From IMG/VR virus record IMGVR_UViG_3300021963_000407, positions 1 to 33,116 of that record: a stretch of 33,116 nucleotides of DNA. One strand, given 5' to 3'. Under the pieces are notes generated by a model. The model was not told the origin of the DNA. It did not search any database and saw only the letters and a program-made list of their open reading frames with translations. The DNA is from a virus. Both the position numbers and the translations under genes were made by a program. Of this stretch, positions 1,304 to 25,807 are shown piece after piece. Numbering within the stretch: the first letter of the stretch is position 1; every line of letters starts with the position of its first letter.

Positions 1304-1311
1304 TATTTATA
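1304..1311 (-). promoter_or_regulatory. Late promoter, perfect TATAAATA
   Basis: The minus strand reads TATAAATA, the exact T4 late consensus, 28 bases before the ATG at 1276. Its first T is the last base of the T-run of the terminator that ends the nrd operon. Confidence 0.85.
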
Positions 1312-6889: not shown

Positions 6890-7453
6890 TCAGCTATCTG
6901 GGAATCTTGCGTCGTCGCCAGCGTCTCCTGTACCAGTGGTAATTCCACTAAATGCCACTAAAGTCTCAGACTTAACTCTGAAGTTTCCATGGTTGTCAAC
7001 ATAAGTTGTTACGCCAACCCAACCAGCATGGGTAACTCCATACGCACCAACTTTAGAACCAACTGTAGTTGTACGTGCAATACCAGTCTCAATAGTATCT
7101 ACACCAAAGACTGCAGAGAATCTATTTGCCTTAGCATCAGGTGCGTTATACTGATGATCCTCAAGAGTGTATTTTGGTTTTTGAGTTACAGTGTATGCAG
7201 CACCCACAATAGCACCATTCAATGGAATCAAGAATTGTGTTGAACCGATTGAAAGTAAAGTTGCTGATGTTACTCCAGTTACAACTGCTTGACCATAAGT
7301 GGCCCCAGTTCCAACAACCAGAATATCTCCAGTAGAGATTCCAGCAGCTACGAAAGTTGTGCCACTTCCAGTTACTGTTTTAGCAGAAAGATTAATTGTT
7401 ATAGTTCCAGTAAGACCCGTGCTTAAAGAATCTTTATTGCCCCAAAGAGCCAT
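6890..7453 (-). CDS. Putative virion structural protein
   Basis: A 187-residue protein rich in Thr, Gly, Val and Ala with the beta-strand alternation usual for phage surface or decoration proteins. It begins MALWGNKDS, contains GVTHAGWVGVTTY and ends with a motif VKSETLVAFSGI and DDARFPDS. I recall this N- and C-terminal pattern in proteins labelled virion structural protein in T4-like cyanophages. There is no signal peptide or enzymatic motif. A perfect late promoter (TATAAATA) lies 32 bases upstream, and a terminator isolates it from the gene before. The structural role is well supported by class and promoter; the exact position in the virion is unknown. Confidence 0.82.
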   Translation of the reverse strand: MALWGNKDSLSTGLTGTITINLSAKTVTGSGTTFVAAGISTGDILVVGTGATYGQAVVTGVTSATLLSIGSTQFLIPLNGAIVGAAYTVTQKPKYTLEDHQYNAPDAKANRFSAVFGVDTIETGIARTTTVGSKVGAYGVTHAGWVGVTTYVDNHGNFRVKSETLVAFSGITTGTGDAGDDARFPDS

Positions 7454-7484: not shown

Positions 7485-7492
7485 TATTTATA
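7485..7492 (-). promoter_or_regulatory. Late promoter, perfect TATAAATA
   Basis: The minus strand reads TATAAATA 32 bases before the ATG at 7453. As at 1304, the promoter begins inside the T-run of a terminator. Confidence 0.85.
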
Positions 7493-7752: not shown

Positions 7753-9546
7753 TCAGTCAAACCTAGAACTCATATTATCCTGTGCTCTTTTTCTAGCAGC
7801 ACGAATCTTTTCTACTTTTTGTGCAGGTGATGTAGGAGCACCATACTCACCAGCAGCAGGTGGTTTTTTACCAGGAACTTTTTTCTGACCTCTTGGTTTA
7901 ACACCCATTCTACCAGTTCCCATTGATTTTGCAACCAATTCAAATGCTGGATTGCGTGGTTTTCTTGGAGTTCCTGCTACCTTGTCTTCCTTTCTTCTTT
8001 CATCAATCACTTCACCTTCTGGTTCATAAGAATTTTTTAAACCAAGATATTTCTGTGATGCTGCGCTTGGTCCCTTATTAAAATAAGTAACATTTTTAGG
8101 CATCGATGCACTACCAGGAAGAACTGCATTTACAGCGTCAACTTTTTTTTGACTTGCTCTATTAGTTGCATCAACTACATCTTTTGTAAGACGAATTGGA
8201 TTTGGAATTGGTGTTGGCCCAAGATATCCATCACCAGGTTTTTCTTGAAGTTGCTCACCTTCTGGTTCATAGGACATTTTAAGTCCCATCGCTCTTAACT
8301 TATTCTTTGCCAGATTAAGTTTAGTTGGGATTTCTCTAGGATCCTCAACACCACCTTCACTCTTCTTGAGTTTTGGTTCTTTTTTATCTTCACAACCACA
8401 TGCTTCTTCCTTCACCGCTTTATTTTTTGCCTTCCAAGCAGTAGCATAAGCAATCGATCTTTCTTTTTTAGTTAACCCTCCATCTGCATATCCTGCTTTA
8501 ATATGCTTAACCATACGCTCATACTTAGCACCTGGAGGTGCCTTTTCAATTAACTCCTCACCATCAGTTTCAACTTCTTCTTGGGAAAGGGGAATACCCT
8601 TTTGAAGTTGCTGAAGTTTTGCCATCAAAGTCTTCTTCTGAAGGGCAACAGTTTGCTTATCCTGAGCAGCATCCTTTTTTTCAGCATCTGCTTTTTTATC
8701 TTCTTTCTTTTCCTCTTCTTTTCCTTCTTTAATACCTCTATCAGAATCTGGGAAAACTTTAATAAGATTGGAATTATTTACACCTTCTCCCGTCAACTTT
8801 TTTTCACTCTTTTCCTCTTTCTTTTTTTCAATCAACTCGGCAAATCCATTTTGCCAATTGTAATCTTCTTTACGAGTAGCAATTGCTTTACCAACTGCCT
8901 TACGACGCTTCATCAGATACTTATCAGACTTATCATGATCACCATCATTATCAACATCTTTATCTTCCTGCCCAACAGGATCTAATCCCTTACCTGCTTT
9001 TGCCTTTGCAGTTGAAGATCCTTTTGCTTTCTCAGACTTTGTTGGTTCACCATATCCAGTCATTTCTACAGAAGAAATATTTGGATTAGCGCGAAGTTCA
9101 GAGATTTTGGCACGAGTCGCCATTCTGACATATGAATTGCCAGTCTTCTTGTCAGTAACTCTTACTTTATATTTTGTATCCTCAGACTCTTCAAGTTGAA
9201 GTAAATAAGCATCTTCTACTTCTTCTACTACTTTTTGCTCAACTTCCCCAGTTACGAATACATTGTATAATGCAGATACAACCGACTCTGTTGCAAGTCT
9301 CTTTGTATCTACAAGATCCTCACCAAGAAGCATTTGCTTTGCTCTTGCCTTTACTGCTGGAGCAGCAGATGACTTAGCAAGTTGTGCAGCATATGCTTTT
9401 TTTACGGTAACAGGATCGGACTTTCCACCCGCCTTAGCAGACATGGCCTGCTTTACCTTATAACGGGTATCATAAGCCAGCTGTCTTGCTTGCTTTTCAA
9501 TTTTTTCCTTTGCTCCACCGGCAGGAGCTGCTGTAGGTTTATCCAT
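7753..9546 (-). CDS. Large Lys/Glu-rich repeat-bearing protein, putative internal virion protein
   Basis: This 597-residue protein is strongly biased to Lys, Glu and Ala. Residues 10-75 form a basic helical region; 126-172 hold a compact segment (YKVRVTDKKTG...SSVEMTGYGEP) that I recall from other marine T4-like virion proteins. Residues 197-208 (DVDNDGDHDKSD) have the Asp spacing of an EF-hand calcium loop. Around 420 and 501 lie two copies of GLK-x-SYEPEGE followed by LQE or IDE. The (L/I)-x-E sites (LQE, IDE, LIE) match the cleavage preference of the T4 prohead protease gp21, so it may be cut during head maturation; that is inference. Late-promoter match CATAAATA lies 33 bases upstream. 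No good ribosome site is visible. Confidence 0.78.
   Translation of the reverse strand: MDKPTAAPAGGAKEKIEKQARQLAYDTRYKVKQAMSAKAGGKSDPVTVKKAYAAQLAKSSAAPAVKARAKQMLLGEDLVDTKRLATESVVSALYNVFVTGEVEQKVVEEVEDAYLLQLEESEDTKYKVRVTDKKTGNSYVRMATRAKISELRANPNISSVEMTGYGEPTKSEKAKGSSTAKAKAGKGLDPVGQEDKDVDNDGDHDKSDKYLMKRRKAVGKAIATRKEDYNWQNGFAELIEKKKEEKSEKKLTGEGVNNSNLIKVFPDSDRGIKEGKEEEKKEDKKADAEKKDAAQDKQTVALQKKTLMAKLQQLQKGIPLSQEEVETDGEELIEKAPPGAKYERMVKHIKAGYADGGLTKKERSIAYATAWKAKNKAVKEEACGCEDKKEPKLKKSEGGVEDPREIPTKLNLAKNKLRAMGLKMSYEPEGEQLQEKPGDGYLGPTPIPNPIRLTKDVVDATNRASQKKVDAVNAVLPGSASMPKNVTYFNKGPSAASQKYLGLKNSYEPEGEVIDERRKEDKVAGTPRKPRNPAFELVAKSMGTGRMGVKPRGQKKVPGKKPPAAGEYGAPTSPAQKVEKIRAARKRAQDNMSSRFD
8002..8042 (-). 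repeat. SYEPEGE repeat, copy 2
   Basis: Encodes LGLKNSYEPEGEVIDE, matching copy 1 at 8241..8286 in LGLK-type start, SYEPEGE and the (L/I)-x-E end. A shorter relative (NSYEPED) is encoded near 398..421. Confidence 0.75.
8241..8286 (-). repeat. SYEPEGE repeat, copy 1
   Basis: Encodes MGLKMSYEPEGEQLQE. Similar to copy 2 at 8002..8042; both contain a potential prohead-protease site directly after the repeat. Confidence 0.75.
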
Positions 9547-9558
9547 TAGGAGATTTAA

Positions 9559-10824
9559 TTACTTATTCTTTCTATACTTATTTATGAAATTCAATCCAAA
9601 ATTGATTTGACCATATGCAAGATTCTCTTTTCCAAGTTCAGATCCTTTGGTTTGCTGCTCCACATACTTCGTATAACCAGAAGTCCCAGAAAGAGTATTA
9701 GGTTTTCCAGGAAGTCTCATCTTGCGATCCATTCTTTTTTCTTGATATGCTTCAGTCACATCTTTAATCCAAGACTTAAACATAATATGATCTTCGGTTA
9801 CACAAATCAGATAATTGGTTCCACGACGAATAATGCGACCAACTAAACCAGTATTCAGATTTTCTACAAGTTGTCCAACCTGATAAATCTTCTCTTGAAT
9901 ATAATTTTCACGAAGATTTACCCAATCAAATTTAGGTGCAATTTCCCATAGACTCCAACCCTCTTTAATTTGCATCGCAGAACGAAGAGTATTATAAAGT
10001 TCTCTTGCCTGCTTTTCATTCATCGATGCAGGTACACCCTTACGGAATGTTTTATAATCACCCTCTGCTGCTGCCTTTCTCTGCTTTGATGCAGACATTC
10101 CAGTTACATCATCATCAGAATCTGGATCTCTTTCTCCAGCAGAACGAACTTCTACATTATCGAACTGATAAAGTTTTCCATTATAACTACCAGTCAATTT
10201 CTCAAATTCCTTGACTCGATCTGCGCCACCAATAATTCTTACATTTGTATAACCATCCATATGTGCTTTCTTGAGCACATCAAAGATGGTGCGATTTGCA
10301 GTATCATTGACGATCCTCTCACTATGCTGAGGAAACATTTGCCTCATCACAGAAACTTTGGTGTCAGGATCTAATGGATTTTTTTTCTTATCCTGACTTC
10401 TTGAAGGTACAATAACATAGTCTCCATCATCAGAAGACTTTGCCACAGTATCTAAAAGTTTTTCATGCCCAGTCGTTGGTGGATTGAAACGACCAAAAGC
10501 AATTGTAAGAGTTCCTTTAGTTTTTTCTACTTCTGGTGGAACCATTTCAACAGGTTGTTGTGCCTGTGGTTCCTGCTGTGGTGCAGGTTCTTGCGTTGGT
10601 TGAGATAAGTTCTTTTCCTGATCAGTCTGTACTGGATCTTTAGCACCAACCTTTTGACGCTTATTATAAAACTTCAGTTGACCTTTTTCCGTCTTCGCAA
10701 CAAACTCACCAGTTTTTTTATCATACCAACCACCATGCCCATCACCAACCAATCCCATACGCTGAGCTTGCTGAACAGCGGTTGATGCTGCTGCTTCGGA
10801 CAAAAATTGGAAAAGGTTTTTCAT
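9559..10824 (-). CDS. Nucleotidyltransferase with a capsid-targeting leader
   Basis: Residues 1-11 (MKNLFQFLSEA) match the leader of T4 internal proteins (MKTYQEFIAEA) and carry the gp21-type cleavage site LSE|A. After a small aromatic segment (GGWYDKKTGEFVA) and a Gln/Pro-rich linker (61-95) comes a cytidylyltransferase-like nucleotidyltransferase fold: TLTIAFGRFNPPTTGH (105-120, HxGH-type nucleotide site) and SASKQRKAA (244-252, counterpart of the ISSTxxR motif). The C-terminal part has a KOW/SH3-like strand region (VGQLVENLNTGLVGRIIRRG, about 316-335). Such folds include NMN and pantetheine-phosphate adenylyltransferases, but the substrate cannot be read here. It ends 12 bases before the next gene and overlaps the upstream one by one base. 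Confidence 0.85.
   Translation of the reverse strand: MKNLFQFLSEAAASTAVQQAQRMGLVGDGHGGWYDKKTGEFVAKTEKGQLKFYNKRQKVGAKDPVQTDQEKNLSQPTQEPAPQQEPQAQQPVEMVPPEVEKTKGTLTIAFGRFNPPTTGHEKLLDTVAKSSDDGDYVIVPSRSQDKKKNPLDPDTKVSVMRQMFPQHSERIVNDTANRTIFDVLKKAHMDGYTNVRIIGGADRVKEFEKLTGSYNGKLYQFDNVEVRSAGERDPDSDDDVTGMSASKQRKAAAEGDYKTFRKGVPASMNEKQARELYNTLRSAMQIKEGWSLWEIAPKFDWVNLRENYIQEKIYQVGQLVENLNTGLVGRIIRRGTNYLICVTEDHIMFKSWIKDVTEAYQEKRMDRKMRLPGKPNTLSGTSGYTKYVEQQTKGSELGKENLAYGQINFGLNFINKYRKNK
9579..9586 (-). promoter_or_regulatory. Late promoter, CATAAATA
   Basis: One mismatch from TATAAATA, located inside the 3' end of the nucleotidyltransferase gene and 33 bases before the ATG at 9546. Confidence 0.55.
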
Positions 10825-11048
10825 TACTTACAGATTTCAGTAGTTATTGCTCGTTCGTTTGCAACAATGTATCTGAGGACACTATTCCTCATTTTCTTAT
10901 ATTTATTCATTTCTCTATCCGACTTACATAAAGAAATCTTTTTATCAAAAGTCATGTAGACATGTGCTAAGAGATCATTGTACCTTGCACCTCTAGTCTT
11001 AGATGGTGATTCAAATGATTTAATGATATCTTGTATTTGAGAATTCAT
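10824..11048 (-). CDS. Small conserved helical protein, unknown function
   Basis: A 74-residue basic protein with two predicted helices (SQIQDIIKSFESP and RYNDLLAHVYMTFDKKI) and a third near the end (MRNSVLRYIVANERA). I recall short proteins of this pattern (RY-x-D-x-L-x-H and KMRNSVL) in marine T4-like phages, without an assigned role. It overlaps its upstream neighbour by 4 bases (ATGA) and the next gene by one base (TAATG), so it is made in fixed ratio with the putative nuclease and the nucleotidyltransferase. Confidence 0.75.
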   Translation of the reverse strand: MNSQIQDIIKSFESPSKTRGARYNDLLAHVYMTFDKKISLCKSDREMNKYKKMRNSVLRYIVANERAITTEICK

Positions 11049-12328
11049 TTTTTCTTCACTTTATTAAATTTAACTGCAAGATTTGAGAATTGTCCTAATT
11101 TATGAGTAGCGCCAACTTTATTTGTTCTAGTTGTAAAATCCAATTCTAATCTAGATCCATCGGTTAATGTAATATTCCAAGATTGTTTGGAGGATCCTGT
11201 TGCAGGGGCTGCTACAATTCCCCTTACAGATGCTAAAGCTTCAACTAATAAGTCACTGGATTTATCACGTCTTGCAGTCGATTGTGTTGTTTTAACAACC
11301 ACCAATGGAACATCTTGCTGCTGTTGAGCTACTTTCTCCAATAGCCACTTTCTAGTTTTTGCAAAATCACTATTCAATAGATTAATCAACTCTTGTTTTA
11401 TTATAGCAAGATTTTTATCATAAAGAGCATCATAACCCTGAGGATTCATCTTTTCATATTCATATGTTTTTAGTGCGAGAGTATTTTTACCCCAATTTTT
11501 CTTATCATCCTCAGTAATTCCAGGAATCTGAAGATATTGAGGCCAGAGTTTATCTTTTAATTTTTCATACTCAGACACTTTTCCATAAAATTCAAAAATT
11601 GGTTTTACATAAGTATTAAGTTTTGGTTCATCAGTTGTTTCACCACCTGCCTTTAAACTTACACCTAATATTTTGCCGTTTGCAAATTGAAGAAAAATAT
11701 CACCAGGATGATTTGCCATAACTCCTTTAGGTTTGGCACGATAACCCCAATAAACTCTAGAAATTGGATGTGCTCGATTAACACCTTCAATCCATCTTAA
11801 CACATTAATTGCATTTCTAACTTTCTCTTCAAACTTACCAGTTTCTGCTTTATCAATAAACTCCTTACCGGAAGCAGCATCTCTTGGATTTAGATAACAA
11901 GGTAAATTTGGTTTATTATTCTGTATAATCCTATTGTAAAAATCTTTTGTATTTTTTATGGTTTTAGATGAGATGCCAGTCGTAAATGCTATACACGGAA
12001 ATAATTCTGTAATAGAAGCATTTAACGTCGTCTGGGACATTCCCCCACGTTTAGGTTTGTATATGAAGGTATGCGTAACTTGATCAATTTGGCATTGTGT
12101 AACTGCCATAGATGATTCACCACTTTGTTTCCTGGTTACAGGACCAACTTGAGCGGATTTTAATTTTTGCTCTACAATATTTCTTGTAGATTCTCTATCA
12201 TCAGATTTAATAACATATTTGACTGCTCTGGCACTAGCAGTTTTAACCGTAATATCAATACCTTTAATACTTTCCTTTACACTTTGAAGTGCAGAGTTAA
12301 GTTGAAGTAACTTATTACCTGTTACCAT
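11045..12328 (-). CDS. Phage protein with a possible PD-(D/E)XK nuclease site
   Basis: This 427-residue protein is not one I can name. Residues 83-110 (THTFIYKPKRGGMSQTTLNA then ITELFP) and the middle (HPGDIFLQFANGKILGVSLK, residues 207-226) look well conserved. In the latter, Asp210 followed by a strand and S-L-K (224-226) fits the D...(E/Q/S)-x-K pattern of PD-(D/E)XK nucleases, with KLNTYVKP next. The C-terminal third has a Gln-rich linker and a basic end (KFNKVKKK). It is the first gene after the tRNAs and heads the cluster leading into putative virion proteins. The nuclease assignment is inference; a structural or packaging accessory role is equally possible. Confidence 0.72.
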   Translation of the reverse strand: MVTGNKLLQLNSALQSVKESIKGIDITVKTASARAVKYVIKSDDRESTRNIVEQKLKSAQVGPVTRKQSGESSMAVTQCQIDQVTHTFIYKPKRGGMSQTTLNASITELFPCIAFTTGISSKTIKNTKDFYNRIIQNNKPNLPCYLNPRDAASGKEFIDKAETGKFEEKVRNAINVLRWIEGVNRAHPISRVYWGYRAKPKGVMANHPGDIFLQFANGKILGVSLKAGGETTDEPKLNTYVKPIFEFYGKVSEYEKLKDKLWPQYLQIPGITEDDKKNWGKNTLALKTYEYEKMNPQGYDALYDKNLAIIKQELINLLNSDFAKTRKWLLEKVAQQQQDVPLVVVKTTQSTARRDKSSDLLVEALASVRGIVAAPATGSSKQSWNITLTDGSRLELDFTTRTNKVGATHKLGQFSNLAVKFNKVKKK

Positions 12329-25477: not shown

Positions 25478-25807
25478 TCAACCTTTATCAAGTTCACCCA
25501 TAGCTTTCTGCTTACGAAGTTTCTTAGGATTCTTCGTCTTGTCTGCAGAGTAGTTACTATCATCACCCTCAGGGTCTATAGAACTACGTTGTCTTGTGCT
25601 TCTTTCTGCATCAGTCAGTTTTGAACGCATTCTCTTTGCTTCATCAGGAGAATAGGTATTACCACTGTTGTACCATTCTTTACCTACATGACCTCTCTTC
25701 TTAGCATCAGCAGAAGCTTCTCTACGCTTGAGTTTTCTACGGTTTGCTTTGAAGTCTTTCATGGTCATGCCTTCGGCAAGAATCATAAACTCTTTAAAAG
25801 TTTTCAT
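25478..25807 (-). CDS. Small basic protein with a capsid-targeting leader
   Basis: The 109-residue, highly basic protein starts MKTFKEFMILAEG, close to the T4 internal-protein leader MKTYQEFIAEA, and has LAE|G where the prohead protease gp21 would cut. After the leader it is rich in Lys, Arg, Ser and Asp (KANRRKLKRREAS, DEAKRMRSKLTDAERSTRQR) with no known domain, which suits a DNA-associated protein packed into the head and possibly injected. It is the second gene of a two-gene late unit: the upstream ORF ends one base before its ATG, a late-promoter match lies at 25977..25984, and a terminator follows. Confidence 0.75.
   Translation of the reverse strand: MKTFKEFMILAEGMTMKDFKANRRKLKRREASADAKKRGHVGKEWYNSGNTYSPDEAKRMRSKLTDAERSTRQRSSIDPEGDDSNYSADKTKNPKKLRKQKAMGELDKG

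Follow-up and report, generated by a model that had tools for sequence, protein, structure and literature searches.

A cyanomyovirus nucleotidyltransferase with a T4-type capsid-targeting leader, a candidate enzyme cargo of the phage head

The window, a stretch of 33,116 nucleotides of DNA from a marine T4-like phage, carries on its minus strand a nucleotidyltransferase gene with an ORF of 421 amino acids, read from 10824 to 9559. The first-pass annotation had the position right (9559-10824) but did not give the orientation; the plus-strand translation is interrupted. The protein begins with a leader, MKNLFQFLSE (residues 1-10, 10795-10824; all features of this gene are on the minus strand), that resembles those of the T4 internal proteins IPII and IPIII and is conserved in 44 homologs. 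It is followed by a "DGHG" module (residues 12-60, 10645-10791) that in other cyanophages is also found in virion kinases and in Cas9-like proteins, a variable linker (residues 61-104, 10513-10644, conservation 0.71, low pLDDT), an alpha/beta nucleotidyltransferase domain (residues 105-290, 9955-10512) and, as judged from a structural model, a small beta domain (residues 316-357, 9754-9879) with a variable tail behind it. Conservation among homologs marks the (T/H)xGH catalytic motif in GRFNPPTTGH (residues 111-120, 10465-10494) and the SxSxxR nucleotide-binding motif in SASKQR (residues 244-249, 10078-10095).

The neighboring genes are on the same strand. Downstream are a 597-aa gene (7753-9546), whose product is a homolog of S-SCSM1 ORF92, an annotated virion protein (phmmer E 1e-12), and a homolog of S-SCSM1 ORF95, annotated as a tail fiber/virion protein (6890-7453, phmmer E 7e-30). 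The upstream gene (11045-12328) has a PHROG match to phrog_2496, a family of unassigned function. Synteny pairs the genes at 9559, 7753 and 6890 with S-SCSM1 ORFs 91, 92 and 95, all of which are virion-annotated. The 33-kb record further encodes nrdA/B, primase, helicase, uvsX, polymerase, clamp-loader and recombination genes in cyanomyovirus order, with some names read from translations; gp21 and gp23 lie outside this fragment. Exact T4-type late promoters, TATAAATA, are found at 7485-7492 and 1304-1311 (both minus strand), each about 30 bases ahead of an ORF (6890-7453 and 155-1276, respectively), and promoter scans around the nucleotidyltransferase gene gave counts near shuffle expectation.

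Its sequence places the window protein in the cyanomyovirus core family T4-GC190/phrog_395, with a strong full-length match to phrog_395 (E 7e-105) and a match at E 1.7e-159 to P-SSM2_194, which is annotated as GC190. A scan of IMG/VR for relatives of the S-CREM2 member, gp154, returned one locus only. The cytidylyltransferase-type domain that had been read from the letters is confirmed: PF01467 (CTP_transf_like) matches residues 108-209 above its cut-off (31.8 versus 21 bits), both motifs are intact, and G111, R112, G119, H120, S244 and R249 do not vary across 42 homologs. The fold is intact as well. In an AlphaFold2 model with a mean pLDDT of 67, the nucleotidyltransferase domain mostly scores 70-90, with most of the domain above 80, and in a fold search of the PDB this model matched structures of NadD, of PPAT and of NMNAT (best E 7.6e-5, probability 1.0). 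Structure prediction had been proposed at first pass as a check, and a grossly broken site was not seen. Sequence searches of the PDB gave no match with the window protein alone, and only four weak, unrelated matches with a 42-sequence profile.

A profile of the DGHG module, run against 3,790 ORFs of phage regions, found nothing but nucleotidyltransferases, kinases, Cas9-like proteins and S-CRM01 gp128, and in S-CREM2 both proteins with the module are virion-detected; tblastn with a hand-made leader-plus-module consensus added no relatives to those of the earlier module search. At the other end of the protein, the tail had been called KOW-like. The model does contain a small all-beta domain there, with strands within residues 319-352, but no KOW family model matched, and the name is best kept as descriptive. 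This beta domain is found in, or starting, the next ORF near leaderless stand-alone enzymes of S-RSM4, P-HM1 and S-MbCM7, and as a separate ORF near the S-PM2 form of the enzyme too. Small beta-domain ORFs (L092:6534-6788, L095:6591-6803, L119:18559-18834) are publicly annotated as "ribonucleotide reductase alpha subunit" or NrdB, which looks like a propagated error because the true nrdA/nrdB genes are nearby. In many cyanophages the gene directly upstream of the nucleotidyltransferase encodes DUF6267 (L092:4781-5983, L091:5088-6014, L101:31478-32671); in S-PM2 the two are fused (S-PM2p142, L119:15633-16805), and phrog_455 covers both. The invariant KWDGAP and EGxV (EGYV) motifs of DUF6267 recall ligase-type nucleotidyltransferases, but this likeness stays an impression since a DUF6267 profile found no useful match in the PDB.

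The N-terminus of the window protein, MKNLFQFLSEAAAS, is predicted to be cut by a prohead protease between E10 and A11 (MKNLFQFLSE|A). It aligns without gaps to MKTYQEFIAE|A of T4 IPII/IPIII, the leaders being of equal length. In T4, leader positions 4 and 7 serve targeting and positions 8 and 10 serve processing (PMC9026906); the window leader fits these key positions with L4, F7, L8 and E10, that is, hydrophobic residues at 4, 7 and 8 and a glutamate at 10. Conservation was assessed in a non-redundant set of 44 IMG/VR homologs, the window copy among them, with 69-89% identity to that copy. K2 and F7 do not vary, and 44/44 keep the glutamate (43 at position 10, and one, which has a deletion, at position 9). 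The residue that follows it is S in 22, A in 18, T in 2 and N in 2. Third codon positions of the leader differ at 0.445, compared with 0.14 and 0.125 for first and second positions; because third positions vary about 3.5 times as often, the leader peptide is under selection. Indels occur directly after the leader, as would be expected because the propeptide boundary would lie there, and in the AlphaFold2 model the leader is of low confidence and outside the folded domains. The T4-type leader claimed at first pass is thus real, gapless to IPII/IPIII and kept across the homolog set.

The match is not a chance one. When every in-frame Met near ORF starts (4,445 in 90 sequences) was scanned for the leader pattern, matches were confined to the nucleotidyltransferase family, in nearly all 80 IMG/VR relatives, and two unrelated ORFs; L067, a relative missing the pattern, has a one-residue deletion with the motif kept. 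One unrelated 401-aa protein in a relative of the window phage (L056:1296-2501) has the leader MKSFTEFIIEG and no Pfam match above cut-off. In S-8S55 (L098:3959-4004), the annotated start of the nucleotidyltransferase is a Met just past the leader position; read from an in-frame GTG further upstream, the protein would begin MSFFKRVRTILES, an alternative leader or a degraded one. Similar candidate cut sites are found in the major capsid proteins of three relatives used for comparison, the window fragment having no such gene: SGSFLAE|A in S-SCSM1, GTGLLTE|A in S-CREM2 and RGILTE|A in S-SZBM1. These sites, inferred from T4, sit at the T4 gp23 cut position (FGSFLTE|A), and all three phages encode gp21 homologs.

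Members of the family have been found in purified virions by mass spectrometry. A "Putative citidylyltransferase (T4-GC190)" was detected in S-SM1 virions in 2010 (PMC3037559), followed by relatives in S-SCSM1 (PMC9602691), S-SZBM1 (2 peptides, PMC9146016) and S-CREM2 (3 peptides, PMC10665884). The packaging that the first-pass annotation proposed is thus supported through published data on four relatives, the window copy itself being known from its sequence. All four virion-detected members have the leader (S-SM1 MKKFSAFLNEA, S-SCSM1 MKSFLQFLKEA, S-SZBM1 MRFRQFIIEA, S-CREM2 MKNFSSFLTEA), and the start of the catalytic motif varies from residue 28 to 123 among the leader-bearing members compared. 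The S-CBWM1 virion is also reported to carry an NMNAT; this protein is a distant relative and was left out of the virion-detected count. The S-PM2 member, in contrast, is encoded but was undetected in the S-PM2 virion (PMC3037559), a comparison that draws on one older data set, and S-PM2p142 is leaderless and fused to the C-terminal half of DUF6267. Since several lineages (S-RSM4, P-HM1, S-MbCM7) carry leaderless members, the enzyme is also useful inside the cell.

The leader pattern is not restricted to this family. In S-CREM2, a pattern built from T4 positions 4, 7, 8 and 10 was applied to 217 of the 219 proteins (the first two genes were left out). It matched 5/52 virion-detected proteins and 1/165 undetected ones, with a mean of 0.47 for shuffled N-termini (Fisher p=0.0033; four pattern versions gave p from 0.012 to 0.0009, uncorrected, and the residue classes were partly picked after the family had been seen). 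The matches are gp6, a SAM lyase (PF23780), gp13, the gp14 kinase, gp136 and gp154. The virion protein gp12 has a close variant, RFASFMAE|A, at residues 18-25; it is annotated as Cas9-like, a submitters' name, and a search for a Cas9 Pfam domain in it found none. Virion-detected gp15 starts MNFSEFNES, and the S-CRM01 kinase gp130, of a type reported from S-CRM01 virions, starts MISFDQFLSEK. Leader-like starts together with DGHG modules are seen on kinases, which have the module twice, and on Cas9-like proteins, at loci in S-CREM2 (gp12-gp15, L110:5205-10832), S-N03 (L112:2576-7799) and ACG-2014f (gp187, L111:4880-7765).

Further leader-like sequences were noticed. A small basic 109-aa ORF of the window (25478-25807, minus strand) starts MKTFKEFMILAEGM, leader-like with a two-residue insertion; it has no PHROG match, and its product is a possible second head-cargo protein. 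Proteins of phrog_1742, of about 106 aa, namely S-SCSM1 ORF30 (L083:44215-44535) and an S-SZBM1 relative in L100, have the leaders MKTFKQFMSES and MKSFKSFLSES; their genes lie among virion genes, and the proteins themselves are not reported in virions. The S-SCSM1 virion protein ORF93 (L082:22808-23017) ends in RTFKEFLEYIE, which is leader-like but at the C-terminal end; T4 Alt is processed at its C-terminus too (PMC9026906). On balance, we lean towards the notion that cyanomyoviruses have a general, portable leader, often joined to a DGHG module, that loads unrelated enzymes into the head, the payloads being the nucleotidyltransferase, an APH-like kinase, a SAM lyase and a Cas9-like protein.

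For the window protein, the leader, its conservation, the intact site and fold, and the synteny are observed, virion presence comes from published work on relatives, and we infer docking, cleavage, ejection and the substrate. Taken together, it is quite probable that the protein is a head-packaged enzyme that is docked by its leader, probably cut, ejected with the DNA, and active in modifying a small molecule. During prohead assembly the first ten residues would dock the enzyme in the scaffold core, as does the capsid-targeting sequence of T4 internal proteins. The prohead protease, a gp21 homolog, would then probably cut after LSE; the enzyme would stay in the head and later be ejected into the cell along with the DNA. 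There, the adenylyl/cytidylyltransferase domain would act on a small molecule, most plausibly a precursor of a cofactor, either of the NMN/NaMN type or of the pantetheine-phosphate type, with NMN/NaMN as the leading guess.

Within this head-cargo reading, a narrower proposal would have the injected enzyme restore host NAD, specifically as an NMN adenylyltransferase, for instance in the face of an NAD-depleting defence; this we regard as possible yet rather doubtful. Among the NCBIfam models, the NadR NMN-adenylyltransferase domain matches best (E 6e-5), the top PDB folds include NadD and NMNAT, the S-SCSM1 authors named their family member NMNAT (PMC9602691), and action on host NAD has been proposed in the virion papers that appeared after 2010 (PMC9602691, PMC9146016, PMC10665884). 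The NMNAT equivalogs, however, score far below their curated cut-offs (22.5 versus 341, 21.1 versus 112 and 12.3 versus 127 for the NadR/NadD/NadM set), CoaD structures match equally well, and a NAMPT/NAPRTase partner was found in 0/10 related phage genomes, the window phage being represented by a fragment only. The PPAT (CoaD) equivalog also stays below its cut-off (21.1 versus 103), and all NCBIfam subfamily models do so by far, so that they point to no particular substrate. The NAD-type cofactor target suggested at first pass is a lead from sequence matches, kept for the NadR match and the folds and weakened by the equivalog scores and the missing partner. A phage NAD salvage operon (NAMPT + NMNAT) is not supported, there being no partner in the 10 related phages; the Namat route (NARP1) is rejected, as the Namat core is NAMPT-like and of a different enzyme class (PMC12774641), and PADLOC gave no match for the nucleotidyltransferase.

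It is unlikely that the protein is packaged by its leader mainly as a structural or scaffold-linked component, with an activity that serves virion assembly and not the new host. The gene does lie within a cluster of virion-protein genes, but the catalytic motifs are invariant, which a purely structural protein would not require, and the emPAI is low, 0.26 in S-SZBM1 versus 27.64 for the capsid protein (PMC9146016). About as improbable is that an abundant late cytoplasmic protein co-purifies with virions, its N-terminal peptide simply belonging to the fold or making contact with another protein. Co-purification of abundant proteins was raised by the authors on S-SCSM1 and S-CREM2 (PMC9602691, PMC10665884), peptides are few in S-SZBM1 and S-CREM2, and leaderless forms occur, yet the enzyme was present in four separate virion preparations, the T4 targeting motif recurs on other virion-detected enzymes without a common catalytic domain, and the leader lies outside the folded domains, at low confidence and with indels just after it.

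The head-cargo reading builds on established ground. Injection of head-packaged enzymes is familiar from T4 (Alt, internal proteins), and the T4-GC190 family, its presence in virions (2010) and the NAD idea are already published. In the open-access papers covered by the search (subscription papers were outside it), nothing was found that connects the enzymes of cyanophage virions with a targeting leader of the T4 type; what appears to be new, on the sequence evidence, is this leader as an explanation for the virion enzyme, and a different set of payloads for head cargo targeted in the T4 manner. The "metabolic" enzymes published from cyanophage virions have so far been left open as possible contaminants, and a conserved targeting leader provides a testable reason to treat them as true cargo. 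It also yields a rule by which cargo can be predicted from the sequences of hundreds of marine phage genomes, and would move the gene from auxiliary metabolic gene to injected effector, acting before phage gene expression. If the portable address is true, virion cargo would be predictable from sequence, and at the time of entry these enzymes together may target cofactors and defences of the host.

Compared with known systems, close counterparts include S-SM1 gp190, S-SCSM1 ORF91 "NMNAT", S-SZBM1 gp140 and S-CREM2 gp154, which are homologous to the window copy over nearly the full length and share its leader; the window copy is a further member, read from DNA, of the T4-GC190/phrog_395 family already detected in virions. 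S-PM2p142 has the same nucleotidyltransferase domain and gene position but, unlike the window protein, is a leaderless DUF6267 fusion that is virion-undetected. With NMNAT, NadD and PPAT, the window protein has the alpha/beta fold, (T/H)xGH and SxSxxR in common, but it falls under every subfamily cut-off. T4 IPII/IPIII and Alt have a short capsid-targeting sequence that is cut by gp21, and the window protein is like IPII/IPIII in leader length, key positions and a Glu|small-residue site, and its relatives are virion proteins. Its cleavage is a prediction, and its cargo differs: where T4 packs a small basic protein or an ADP-ribosyltransferase, the window gene would supply a nucleotidyltransferase that comes with a conserved DGHG module and with a beta tail.
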